NCBI GenBank assembly: GCA_009693245.1
Contig: SHXO01000012.1
Coordinates: 1-47,138 of the forward strand
Source: Betaproteobacteria bacterium
GTDB lineage: Bacteria > Pseudomonadota > Gammaproteobacteria > Burkholderiales > SHXO01
Length of the DNA: 47,138 nt
Reading direction: 5' to 3'
In this document: positions 12,545-25,230 of the stretch, in pieces
Layout of the letters: every line of letters starts with the position of its first letter
Position numbering within the stretch: the stretch's first letter is position 1
Notes under the pieces: model-generated
What the model was told of the DNA's origin: nothing
The model's input: the letters and a program-made list of their open reading frames with translations, nothing else
Database searches by the model: none
Program-made: the position numbers and the translations under genes

Positions 12545-12561
12545 TGTCGGAATCCTTTACA
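12545..12561 (+). promoter_or_regulatory. TGTCGG-N5-TTTACA element, copy 1 (proximal, PEP-CTERM gene 1)
   Basis: The sequence is TGTCGGAATCCTTTACA. Its 3' end lies 65 bp upstream of the -24 GG of the sigma-54-type promoter at 12625. The same 17-bp pattern occurs at 13572, 25046 and 25214 and nowhere else I could find. Position and TGT...ACA dyad ends suit an upstream activator site for a sigma-54 enhancer-binding protein. Confidence 0.75.
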
Positions 12562-12624
12562 GTCCATCGCCTCAGATCCTTGTTTAATCTCATAAGAACT
12601 TGATTGTAAGATATAAAATATATA

Positions 12625-12640
12625 TGGCGCAAATACTGCG
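12625..12640 (+). promoter_or_regulatory. Sigma-54 -24/-12 promoter of PEP-CTERM gene 1
   Basis: TGGCGCAAATACTGCG matches the consensus TGGCAC-R-N4-TTGCW in the essential GG and GC dinucleotides at the right spacing, plus C4, C6, R7 and T13. Transcription would begin near 12651, leaving a leader of about 68 nt before the ATG at 12719. The surrounding DNA is AT-rich. Confidence 0.75.
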
Positions 12641-12718: not shown

Positions 12719-13564
12719 ATGAAGTCCGGATTATTGAAGCACACCACAATATTCCCCGCGATAATTGGAGCACTGATGTGTCAAAGTGCATACGCAATCC
12801 TGGTAACGGGGAATACCAACGCGACGGACTTGGGCAATGCGGTAGCCACAAGTGGGGGAGCAGGCCTGACCGTGCTCAGCTCCACGCTGAGCGGAAACAC
12901 TTCGGGCAGCGCTGTGTCGCGCGGTACTTATACCAACGCCTCCGGTACCTACAACATCGGCGATGGGATCGTCATTTCCTCAGGCAACGTGAACGACTAT
13001 AGCGACGGCCCTAACACGAGTACGGGTAATACTACCAATTATTCAACCGCAGCCACGGCCGCCCAGCAGTTATTGCTGAATCAGGTATCGGGCCTATCTA
13101 ACTATCTTGACGTTACGCAACTGGATGTGACCTTCACGACCACCACCGGAGAAGTATTCTTCAACGTAGTGTTCGGCTCCGACGAATTTCAGGAATTTCA
13201 GAACAGCCCCTTCATCGATGCCTTCGGCCTGTTTCTAGATGGCGTTAACATCGCCGTGTTCAACGGCAAGCCCATTAACATAAACCATCCGGATATGGCC
13301 TTTAGGGCTGGCACCGAGCTCGATGGAGTCCTACCTGGAAGCGGCGGCCCCATGCTGTTTTCCGGCACAGGCTTGGATATCACCAAACAACATACCTTGA
13401 CCTTTATCCTTGCAGACCGTGGTGACGGCGCTTTAGACAGCACGGCCTACATTGGTGGCTTAGGCGGTACCGCACCTCAGGGATCTGTTCCGGAGCCGAC
13501 CACTCTAGCACTGATGGGCCTAAGCTTGGTTGGTCTTGGTGCTATGCGCAAACGGAGAACCTAG
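12719..13564 (+). CDS. PEP-CTERM protein with choice-of-anchor-L-type domain
   Basis: 281 residues. A signal peptide (KHTTIFPAIIGALMCQSAYA) is followed by a Thr/Asn/Ser-rich extracellular domain with FFNVVFGSDEFQEF and FIDAFGLFLDGVN, the hallmark of the choice-of-anchor L domain. The end is a full PEP-CTERM sorting signal: VPEP, a hydrophobic stretch (LALMGLSLVGLGAM), then RKRR. Such proteins are cleaved and released by exosortase and belong to the exopolysaccharide/biofilm matrix. GAAGGAGAAGG precedes the ATG. Codon use is less GC-rich than its neighbours. It lies alone on the plus strand between FtsX and AttH genes, bracketed by TGTCGG-N5-TTTACA elements, and ends in a strong terminator. 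Confidence 0.92.
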   Translation: MKSGLLKHTTIFPAIIGALMCQSAYAILVTGNTNATDLGNAVATSGGAGLTVLSSTLSGNTSGSAVSRGTYTNASGTYNIGDGIVISSGNVNDYSDGPNTSTGNTTNYSTAATAAQQLLLNQVSGLSNYLDVTQLDVTFTTTTGEVFFNVVFGSDEFQEFQNSPFIDAFGLFLDGVNIAVFNGKPININHPDMAFRAGTELDGVLPGSGGPMLFSGTGLDITKQHTLTFILADRGDGALDSTAYIGGLGGTAPQGSVPEPTTLALMGLSLVGLGAMRKRRT

Positions 13565-13571
13565 AATCCAC

Positions 13572-13588
13572 TGTCGGAATTCTTTACA
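13572..13588 (+). promoter_or_regulatory. TGTCGG-N5-TTTACA element, copy 2 (downstream, orphan)
   Basis: TGTCGGAATTCTTTACA begins 8 bp after the stop of the PEP-CTERM gene, in the same orientation as copy 1. With its flanks, 20 of 23 bases match the copy 1 region (cagtgtcgg...acagtc against cactgtcgg...acactc). No -24/-12 sequence follows it at a suitable distance on either strand. Confidence 0.65.
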
Positions 13589-13591
13589 CTC

Positions 13592-13620
13592 AACGGCGGC
13601 CAAGGCCGCCGTTTGTTTTT
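13592..13620 (+). terminator. Intrinsic terminator of PEP-CTERM gene 1
   Basis: Perfect 10-bp arms aacggcggcc (13592-13601) and ggccgccgtt (13604-13613) with a 2-base loop are followed by tgttttt. It lies 28 bp after the stop and could also stop transcripts coming the other way. Confidence 0.85.
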
Positions 13621-16874: not shown

Positions 16875-18509
16875 ATGACGAAACGCACGGTTGTCATCGC
16901 CCTCTTTGTTGGAGCACTTGCGGCGTGGATCATTTCCGCACCCGCCCGCACTGGCGCTCACCCAGGCGCCCTCACCGCCGACGGTGGCCGCTACTTCGGC
17001 AAATTGGCGAACGGCAAGCTGCACGGCCAAGGCCGTATCGAATGGGAGAACGGCGCCTTCTACGAAGGAGAGTTCGCCGAGGGTTTGTACTCTGGCCGCG
17101 GGCGCTTGCGATTGGCTTCTGGCGATGTTTACGAAGGGCAGTTCAAGAAAGGGCTGATGGAAGGCCCGGGCCGCACGCGCTATTCGGACGGCGATACCTA
17201 CGCTGGAGAGTTCCGCTCAGGACGCATGCACGGTAAAGGGCGCTATGAGGATGCCCGGGGAGATGTTTACGAGGGAGAATTCGACAAAGATAAATTCGCC
17301 GGCCAGGGCCTTCACATCCGAAAAGGCGGCGGCCGCCACGAAGGCCGCTTCGCCAACTGGCAGCCCGAGGGACCGGGCCGCCACACCGATGCCATGGGCC
17401 GCGTCTATGAGGGCGAGTTCGCCAACGGAGAACTCAACGGCCGGGGCCGCTCGGATGGCAAGGCGGCGGGACGCTACGAAGGCGAGTTCAAGAACTGGCT
17501 CTTCCACGGACAAGGCGTCCTTTACCTTCCCAACGGAGATGTCTACCGGGGAGGCTTCGCCGATGGCCTCTACGACGGCGAAGGCACGCTCACTTACGCC
17601 AAGCCAATTCCCGGTGGCCGCACGCAAGATAGCGGCATCTGGCGTAACGGGGAACTGGAGGATGCGGCGCGCGAAAAACTAGATCTAGCCAACAGCGAAG
17701 CCGCGCTCTACAACCAACGCGCGCTGCTGGACAAGGCGTTGAGCGCCATCGAGGCGAGGGATGCGGGAAAGATCAACTTGTACATGCTCTCCGTCGCCGG
17801 TGAAGGCACGCAGGAAGTATTCAGGCGCGAAGTGGATTTCGTGACGGATTTATTTGGGCGCCAATTCGGCATCAAGGGCCGCGCGCTTGCCTTGGTCAAC
17901 AGCCGCAACACGGTGGCCACGCACCCCATGGCCACGGTCACCAGCATTCGCGAAGCCCTTCAGGGCATCGCCAGACGCATGGATAGGCAGAAGGACATAT
18001 TGTTCCTGTTCATCACTAGCCATGGTTCGAAGGAACACGAGATTTCGCTGGGCCAAGAGAAGATAAAGTTGCGCGGCCTGCCCGCCCAGGATCTGGGCCA
18101 GATGCTCAAGGAGACGGGAATTACCTGGAAAGTCATCCTGATTTCGGCTTGCTACAGCGGCGGTTTCATCGATGCCCTCAAGGACGATCACACCTTGATC
18201 ATGACCGCCGCGCGCCGCGACCGGACCTCCTTCGGCTGCGCCGACGAAAACGACTTCACTTATTTCGGGCGCGCCTTTTTCAAGGAGTCGTTGCCCGCCA
18301 GCACCTCGTTTCAAGACGCCTTCCAACGCGCGGAGAAATTAGTGCGGGAGTGGGAGCGAAAAGATCTGAGCGGGAACGGCCGCGCCGGCGAGGAAGAATA
18401 TTCTCTCCCTCAAATATTCAATCCCGCGCCGGCGGAAAGGTATTTGCGGCGATGGTGGGCACAGGTGCAAGCGAGCGCCCGTGCCCCGGAAGGTCGCGCC
18501 GCCCGCTAA
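16875..18509 (+). CDS. MORN-repeat protein with caspase-like C13 peptidase domain
   Basis: 544 residues. An N-terminal hydrophobic segment (VVIALFVGALAAWIISAPA, ~6-24) is a signal or anchor. Residues ~40-240 form nine MORN units (pattern Y-E-G-E-F-x2-G-x3-G-x-G). A linker helix (~262-295) leads to a peptidase C13 (legumain/caspase-clan) domain, ~299-520. The catalytic dyad is readable: His383 in FITSHGS and Cys426 in ISACYSG. MORN repeats often bind membranes or act as extended beta scaffolds, and the protease would be placed outside the cytoplasmic membrane. Its substrate is unknown. Its stop overlaps the stop of the convergent RND gene. It is divergent from the ABC ATPase. Confidence 0.9.
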   Translation: MTKRTVVIALFVGALAAWIISAPARTGAHPGALTADGGRYFGKLANGKLHGQGRIEWENGAFYEGEFAEGLYSGRGRLRLASGDVYEGQFKKGLMEGPGRTRYSDGDTYAGEFRSGRMHGKGRYEDARGDVYEGEFDKDKFAGQGLHIRKGGGRHEGRFANWQPEGPGRHTDAMGRVYEGEFANGELNGRGRSDGKAAGRYEGEFKNWLFHGQGVLYLPNGDVYRGGFADGLYDGEGTLTYAKPIPGGRTQDSGIWRNGELEDAAREKLDLANSEAALYNQRALLDKALSAIEARDAGKINLYMLSVAGEGTQEVFRREVDFVTDLFGRQFGIKGRALALVNSRNTVATHPMATVTSIREALQGIARRMDRQKDILFLFITSHGSKEHEISLGQEKIKLRGLPAQDLGQMLKETGITWKVILISACYSGGFIDALKDDHTLIMTAARRDRTSFGCADENDFTYFGRAFFKESLPASTSFQDAFQRAEKLVREWERKDLSGNGRAGEEEYSLPQIFNPAPAERYLRRWWAQVQASARAPEGRAAR

Positions 18510-24033: not shown

Positions 24034-24870
24034 TCAGGTCAGCCGGCGTGCCCGCCGCTCGGCCACCAACCCTGCGAGACTGAGCGCCATTAAGCTCACG
24101 GTCCCTGGCTCATGGACAAAGTTACCATTCCTGATTTGAACGTTGCCAGCAAGAGTAGTTGGAACGCCAGCCGCGTCGGTATCAACCACAGTGAGCCCAC
24201 CCACCGCGCCAAAGGAATTGTGTGTCGGATCGTTCATGTCGGAGTTAGTCAACCCCGGAAACAGCGCTGCTCCCGCGACTGTCAGCGCATAGGGTGCCGA
24301 TGTCGCAACTGACGTCACCACCACCGGGAGGAACCCAAAGAGATCCGGATTCGACCCTAAGGTATCGTCTAAACAAAAACCACTAGCCGGAGAACACTCG
24401 GAAAGAGCCAGTAGGCCACCACCTGCATTGATGAATGTCGCGATGTCCGTCTTTCGCGCGATGAGCGCGTCCAATTCCGCCTGCTTCAGCATGCCGCCGA
24501 AGGAGGAGGCGATAGCGATGGCTTCGTAGTTCGATAGATTCGCGCTTGCAAATCCCGCCGCATCCACCCAGTCATACTCCACCCCGAGGGTCAGGAGTAT
24601 GGCGTTCAGGCCGTCCTCTCCAACAAGATGGCCTGGCGTCGGAGAATCAAAGCTCTCCACCCACAAAAACTTGGTAGTTATGTTGGTGTAAACCCCCCCG
24701 GTGACAAAGCTCAATCCAGCTTTCAGTAGGTTCTTGGCTCCTAGGCTGCTCCGGGCGTGAAAGTCCGGATCATGCCCCGTTAGAAATACGGGACCGGCAG
24801 CGGCTGGGGCCGTTGCCAGCGCCGACAACGCAAACGCCAGGGCAGTAATCTTTGTCTTTAGATCGGTCAT
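24034..24870 (-). CDS. PEP-CTERM protein with GATase1-like domain
   Basis: 278 residues. A signal peptide (MTDLKTKITALAFALSALATA) ends at AAAG. The middle (SNYEAIAIASSFGGML, DIATFINAGGGLLALSE) resembles a class-I glutamine-amidotransferase-like/ThuA-like fold, with Cys where a nucleophile could lie (SECSP), but catalysis is not shown. The end is a PEP-CTERM signal: HEPGT, a hydrophobic run (VSLMALSLAGLVA), then ERRARR. AAGGAG lies 8 bases before the ATG. It would be exported, sorted by exosortase and released at the surface. Upstream there are a sigma-54-type promoter (24977) and two TGTCGG-N5-TTTACA elements. No exosortase gene is in the window. Confidence 0.88.
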   Translation of the reverse strand: MTDLKTKITALAFALSALATAPAAAGPVFLTGHDPDFHARSSLGAKNLLKAGLSFVTGGVYTNITTKFLWVESFDSPTPGHLVGEDGLNAILLTLGVEYDWVDAAGFASANLSNYEAIAIASSFGGMLKQAELDALIARKTDIATFINAGGGLLALSECSPASGFCLDDTLGSNPDLFGFLPVVVTSVATSAPYALTVAGAALFPGLTNSDMNDPTHNSFGAVGGLTVVDTDAAGVPTTLAGNVQIRNGNFVHEPGTVSLMALSLAGLVAERRARRLT

Positions 24871-24976: not shown

Positions 24977-24992
24977 TGCAATAATGGAGCCA
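24977..24992 (-). promoter_or_regulatory. Sigma-54 -24/-12 promoter of PEP-CTERM gene 2
   Basis: Read on the minus strand the site is TGGCTCCATTATTGCA, matching TGGCAC-R-N4-TTGCW at all positions except A5 and R7. Transcription would begin near 24966, giving a ~96-nt leader before the ATG at 24870. Confidence 0.8.
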
Positions 24993-25045
24993 CCTGATCT
25001 AAGAACATACACATCAACGCGTTACGTATGTGGGTCCTCTGCCTG

Positions 25046-25062
25046 TGTAAATTCAGCCGACA
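25046..25062 (-). promoter_or_regulatory. TGTCGG-N5-TTTACA element, copy 3 (proximal, PEP-CTERM gene 2)
   Basis: On the minus strand it reads TGTCGGCTGAATTTACA. Its promoter-proximal end is 55 bp from the -24 GG, exactly 10 bp less than at PEP-CTERM gene 1, so both sites face the same side of the helix. Its orientation relative to the promoter is also the same. Confidence 0.75.
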
Positions 25063-25213: not shown

Positions 25214-25230
25214 TGTAAAGAAAGCCGACA
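25214..25230 (-). promoter_or_regulatory. TGTCGG-N5-TTTACA element, copy 4 (distal, PEP-CTERM gene 2)
   Basis: On the minus strand it reads TGTCGGCTTTCTTTACA. It lies 168 bp (16 helical turns) upstream of copy 3, in the same orientation. A second upstream activator site is usual for sigma-54 promoters. Confidence 0.7.

Follow-up and report, generated by a model that had tools for sequence, protein, structure and literature searches.

A predicted PEP-CTERM sigma-54 regulon with helically spaced upstream boxes and a positioned IHF-like consensus in a Betaproteobacteria genome and its relatives

The stretch of DNA analyzed here (the window, 47,138 nucleotides of a contig from a Betaproteobacteria bacterium) contains four copies of the box TGTCGG-N5-TTTACA, and raises the question of whether this box marks a sigma-54-dependent regulon of PEP-CTERM genes and is the operator of a PrsR-like activator, as was proposed in a preliminary description of the sequence. 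The copies lie at 12545..12561 and 13572..13588 on the plus strand and at 25046..25062 and 25214..25230 on the minus strand, at the positions and on the strands first described, and the claim that no other copy is present was borne out by a scan of the window in which two mismatches were allowed. Only 0.0056 exact copies are expected by chance in a window of 47 kb (P for at least four copies approximately 4e-11). The genome-wide search that had been suggested as a check returned six exact copies in 3.0 Mb (130 contigs), compared with 0.36 expected by chance (P approximately 2e-6), and the pattern read backward, used as a control, gave no exact copy in the genome. With two mismatches allowed genome-wide, the reversed control matched as often as the real pattern. 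The box copies used below are the exact copies and the one-mismatch copies that have a promoter, with one exception, a second copy on contig C46 that carries two mismatches and lies closer to the promoter.

The box at 12545 (TGTCGGAATCCTTTACA), which corresponds to motif 1 of Haft et al. 2006, is the proximal box of promoter 1 and a predicted PrsR site. It is followed on the same strand by a sigma-54 -24/-12 promoter at 12625..12639 (TGGCGCAAATACTGC), with the first G of the GG 64 bases after the box, and then by gene 1 (12719..13564, plus strand), encoding a 281-aa protein with a signal-peptide-like N terminus and a choice-of-anchor L domain, which is a PEP-CTERM protein by both the Pfam and the NCBIfam cut-offs. 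On the minus strand, the proximal box of promoter 2 (25046..25062; TGTCGGCTGAATTTACA) has a distal box 168 bp upstream (25214..25230) and is followed by a -24/-12 promoter at 24978..24992 (TGGCTCCATTATTGC), with the first G of the GG 54 bases after the proximal box. The 278-aa secreted protein encoded by gene 2 (24034..24870, minus strand) has the C terminus HEPGTVSLMALSLAGLVAERRARRLT, in which the PEP-CTERM-like tail (HEPGTVSLMALSLAGLVAERRARR) is degenerate, and it is under both the Pfam and the NCBIfam PEP-CTERM cut-offs in the profile search. Each of two PEP-CTERM genes had been described as having a sigma-54 match; both promoters are indeed present, but gene 2 stays below the family cut-offs, and the distances of 65 and 55 bp given to the -24 GG are the same 64 and 54 intervening bases counted as an offset. 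Sigma-54 matches by themselves are about as frequent in the window as chance predicts (29 versus 27 expected), and the significance rests on the pairing of box and sigma-54 promoter. Both genes are stand-alone, each with box and -24/-12 promoter upstream at a spacing within the 32-92 nt reported by Haft et al. 2006. Elsewhere in the window (16875-18509) a protein is encoded that joins MORN repeats to a C13 (legumain/caspase-like) peptidase domain.

The box and the -24/-12 promoter are combined at six places in the genome, listed here with the spacing from the box end to the first G of the GG. Two are those of gene 1 (C12:12545, spacing 64) and gene 2 (C12:25062, minus strand, spacing 54). Of the two exact copies outside the window, one is at C44:23785 (spacing 53), where the promoter precedes a PEP-CTERM gene and, next to it, prsT (TIGR02917), of which the contig end leaves just the first part. 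The other is on C46, where the combined place is C46:2284 (minus strand, spacing 63) and what follows is the beginning of a repetitive protein that is not PEP-CTERM. One-mismatch copies at the usual spacing from a sigma-54 promoter lie at C60:9185 (minus strand, spacing 53) and C89:7148 (minus strand, spacing 42). Four genes in the genome are over the PF07589 cut-off for PEP-CTERM, and three of these have box and sigma-54 promoter; upstream of the remaining one, on contig C16, no box was found.

Three of these places have features of their own. At the C46 locus (L018:2268-2410, minus strand) the start of the repetitive, surface-protein-like gene has two boxes upstream, together with a sigma-54 promoter at 63 bp, and it passes without transition into the C-terminal portion of an HlyD protein of type I secretion, which would reflect either a deletion or an assembly join. 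At the C60 locus (L032:4050-4186, minus strand) the well-spaced box and promoter are accompanied by a weak IHF-like site and by no recognisable gene; all that follows is a 32-codon hydrophobic ORF and then a convergent gene, and this may be an orphan promoter, or one for a small protein or an RNA. In the CHRD-like PEP-CTERM gene on C89 (L020:6376-7002, minus strand) codon 62 is an in-frame TAG, which may reflect a pseudogene, strain variation or an assembly error.

The same arrangement was sought in 399 genomes of the order, using a composite of the box and TGG-N9-TGC at 38-68 or 69-99 nt. The composite was found in 84 of the 399 genomes at the shorter distance (three hits in total for the reversed control) and in 66 of the 399 at the longer (four hits in total for the reversed control). 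The first ORF behind the composite promoter was a PEP-CTERM gene by Pfam in 94 of 140 cases, and by a simpler regular-expression test 89 of 141 targets were positive compared with 4 of 398 other ORFs. In a set of 20 relatives, 5/8 exosortase-positive genomes had box promoters versus 0/12 exosortase-negative genomes (Fisher P 0.004). These distributions, together with the three of four genes in this genome, support the prediction that box plus sigma-54 promoter marks a PEP-CTERM regulon. The proposed role as an operator does not extend to every copy, as the C60 promoter has no recognisable gene and the fourth copy in the window serves no promoter.

That fourth copy (13572..13588) begins 8 bases past the stop codon of gene 1, just before an intrinsic-terminator-like 9-bp GC-rich hairpin with a T tail (13592..13613, plus strand). 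No sigma-54 promoter and no gene follow it on the plus strand, the next gene being convergent, and it is not a promoter operator. A box past the stop codon was considered as a recurrent feature and rejected, the window copy being the only clear case among 139 target genes in a count that leaves out boxes serving the next promoter; at locus L219 a box lies 74 nt past a stop codon, without a promoter by the criterion used. Sigma-54 enhancers are able in principle to act from downstream, and the 13572 copy may be a relic of a neighbouring promoter or an extra PrsR-loading site.

The distances between box and promoter are not spread evenly. Over the 284 promoters listed, the spacings cluster at 42, 53, 64, 75, 86 and 97 bp, a comb of six teeth, and the troughs at 44-47, 67-72, 80-81 and 90-94 are empty or near-empty among the matches listed, 69 being the edge between the two search ranges (39-69 and 70-100). 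The phase resultant among the matches listed is 0.71 at a period of 11.25 bp, compared with a maximum of 0.19 in a jitter null in which each spacing was shifted by up to 5 bp and the envelope was kept. Regression over the teeth gives 11.06 bp per turn, and the resultant is 0.76 for the 174 promoters whose spacers are dissimilar, both among the matches listed and with promoters of related genomes only partly independent. All six spacings of the genome studied here (42, 53, 53, 54, 63 and 64) are in comb phase (P approximately 5e-4). The two promoters of the window had been described as one helical turn apart; they occupy two teeth of the comb, and this relation is general over the promoters listed. 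A helical phase between distal and proximal boxes was also considered and rejected, since ten promoters with distal boxes have no common phase; the distal-proximal distances in this genome, 168 and 126 bp, are multiples of 10.5. No earlier account of a helical comb or of a positioned IHF consensus for PEP-CTERM promoters was found in the literature searched.

The positioned IHF consensus lies in the spacer between box and promoter. In promoter 1 the match (12593..12605, minus strand) is exact to WATCAANNNNTTR and starts 33 bp before the -24 GG on the plus strand (TAAGAACTTGATT), and in promoter 2 a site with one mismatch (25012..25024, minus strand; TAACGCGTTGATG) also starts 33 bp before the -24 GG, in the same register. 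Only two exact matches to the consensus occur in the 47-kb window, one of them the promoter 1 site. Over the regulon, exact WATCAANNNNTTR is found in 14.7 % of spacers versus 1.0 % of dinucleotide shuffles and 0.7 % of the DNA upstream of the box, and a match within one mismatch in 53 % of spacers versus 15 % of shuffles. The match starts 32-33 bp before the GG in one orientation and 20-21 bp in the other. The IHF-DNA structure from Rice and colleagues (1996) reportedly has two kinks 9 bp apart. When this two-kink geometry is applied to the registers of both orientations, the implied kinks fall at about -25 and -16 from the GG, so that both would share one bend centre about 20.5 bp before the GG; a bend centre 19-22 bp from the GG is found in 62 of 191 promoters, compared with 1.2 in shuffles. 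For promoters of the 42 tooth the implied bend centre is about 10 bp before the GG, and for the 75, 86 and 97 teeth, with few promoters per tooth, it is often about 31-33 bp before the GG, which is suggestive of a bend centre that steps by roughly whole turns among the teeth.

It is conceivable, though unlikely, that this signal is merely generic AT-rich, curved or UP-like sequence that resembles an IHF site. At 35 % GC the spacers are AT-rich, and an IHF match, even at one mismatch, is absent from about half of the promoters, among them the C46 promoter. Against this, dinucleotide shuffles that keep the AT content have approximately 15 times fewer exact matches, the matches sit at one register, and the coincidence of the bend centres of the two orientations about 20.5 bp before the GG is not predicted by AT-richness. 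No paper linking PEP-CTERM with "IHF" was found in the literature searched, and papers containing PEP-CTERM and "integration host factor" appear to be transcriptomic or genomic surveys.

The activator itself was sought in the assembly, which is 97 % complete at 3.0 Mb in 130 contigs. The presence of prsK/prsR and rpoN had been set out beforehand as a point on which the proposal would turn; rpoN is present, and neither prs gene is over its cut-off in this assembly, where the best full-length NtrC-type match to PrsR scores 360 bits (cut-off 502.6) and the best match to PrsK 85 bits (cut-off 300). Nor is any exosortase over cut-off in the 130 contigs. The assembly thus holds PEP-CTERM genes and the start of prsT, yet no exosortase, PrsK or PrsR over cut-off. 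An NtrC-type fragment at the edge of C46 was tried as a PrsR candidate and rejected, as it scores better as GlrR (372 versus 257 bits), and a scan of relatives with this fragment returned relatives of the GlrR-like protein, uninformative on PrsR. An assembly gap is the likely reason for the missing PrsR, PrsK and exosortase, because each of the other three genomes of the genus has an exosortase and a contig break falls inside prsT, next to the pepA-like gene on C44; possibly the regulon is orphaned. One genome of the same genus (G001) has an XrtA cluster with a THxN PEP-CTERM gene that is preceded by a box promoter.

As no PrsR or PrsK is found in the assembly, the identity of the activator is taken from relatives, and a box bound by another NtrC-family activator (the response regulators on C1, C11 and C13, or GlrR), with PrsR lost and the regulon rewired, has to be weighed. 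Several full-length sigma-54 response regulators are present and neither PrsR nor PrsK was detected over cut-off, but such rewiring is improbable, given that PEP-CTERM genes of relatives have the same box at the same spacing, that the phylogenetic profile of the box matched PrsR/PrsK/PrsT in 2006, and that the exosortases of the genus and the break inside prsT point to a gap and not to loss. That the repeated box, present four times in 47 kb and twice more elsewhere in the genome, is a mobile or repetitive element with no role in transcription can be set aside with near certainty, as the copies are alike in the 12 specified bases and little in their flanks, keep a fixed distance to sigma-54 promoters with genes behind them, recur over 84 genomes, and form a spacing comb that already refutes it.

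PrsR is retained here as the predicted activator, and there is high confidence that genes 1 and 2 belong to a PEP-CTERM sigma-54 regulon activated by PrsR and PrsK through IHF-bent looping in helical phase. PrsK would activate the response regulator PrsR, a dimer or higher oligomer of which would occupy the imperfect dyad TGTCGR-N5-TTTACA, while sigma-54 RNA polymerase would wait, closed, at the -24/-12 site. IHF at a fixed place would bend the short DNA between box and promoter, so that PrsR on the right helix face, at a distance of whole turns of about 11 bp, could touch sigma-54 and open it. The outcome would be coordinated expression of surface proteins bound for exosortase processing. To the box, promoter, gene class, helical comb and positioned IHF consensus observed here, this scheme would add PrsR and IHF as the binders, the looping, and activator genes outside the assembled contigs. 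A three-part complex set out in whole turns of about 11 bp, with the PrsR box, an IHF bend centred about 10, 20.5 or 32 bp before the GG, and the sigma-54 promoter, is probable, and this layout is not known to have been described for the regulon.

The additions to the known regulon are the helical comb and the positioned IHF consensus, by which looping becomes directly testable. The six-tooth comb with an in-register IHF consensus is strong comparative evidence for short, face-dependent looping by PrsR and, if this is true, the regulon would provide several hundred naturally occurring indel experiments on DNA looping. The comb also offers a sharper rule for recognising members, including those with drifted tails under the cut-off (gene 2) and non-PEP-CTERM genes (C46).

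The box/sigma-54 regulon and the PrsR prediction are a rediscovery, because the box was published in 2006 and RpoN dependence (2023) and DVUA0057 binding have also been reported. Haft et al. 2006 (PMC1569441) described a 17-nt motif 1 with the 3' end TTTACA, sometimes repeated, at a mean of 62.8 nt (s.d. 10.6, range 32-92 nt) from a sigma-54 motif 2. They found these motifs ahead of 99 PEP-CTERM genes out of 167 from proteobacteria, predicted PrsR as the activator, and proposed PrsR, PrsK and PrsT, tied to the box by phylogenetic profile, as regulators. The sites of the window agree with theirs in the 17-nt box, the spacer of about 63 nt, the -24/-12 motif and the stand-alone PEP-CTERM gene that follows; unlike the present account, the text searched does not mention helical quantisation, IHF, or boxes located past the stop codon. 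In Desulfovibrio vulgaris, a DAP-chip assay showed binding of the PrsR-like protein DVUA0057 to the five PEP-CTERM targets predicted for it (PMC3333781). In Aquincola tertiaricarbonis (PMC9850573, 2023) the pepA promoter is RpoN-dependent, and the pepA-prsT pair resembles C44 in its gene order, its -24/-12 promoter (mapped in Aquincola) and its predicted upstream enhancer; in Aquincola the RpoN dependence is experimental and prsK/prsR were found, whereas here the evidence is from sequence and prsK/prsR are not over cut-off. IHF-assisted sigma-54 enhancers of the nifH and Pu class likewise consist of an activator site, an IHF bend site and a sigma-54 promoter, but are known from single promoters, whereas here a positioned IHF consensus is seen regulon-wide, in sequence comparison. 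Whole-helical-turn indels are tolerated in evolution in the Vibrio qrr sigma-54 enhancers (PMC4740811) as they are here, the difference being that the Vibrio study concerns another regulon and 61 genes, and the present comb has six teeth over the 284 PEP-CTERM promoters listed.
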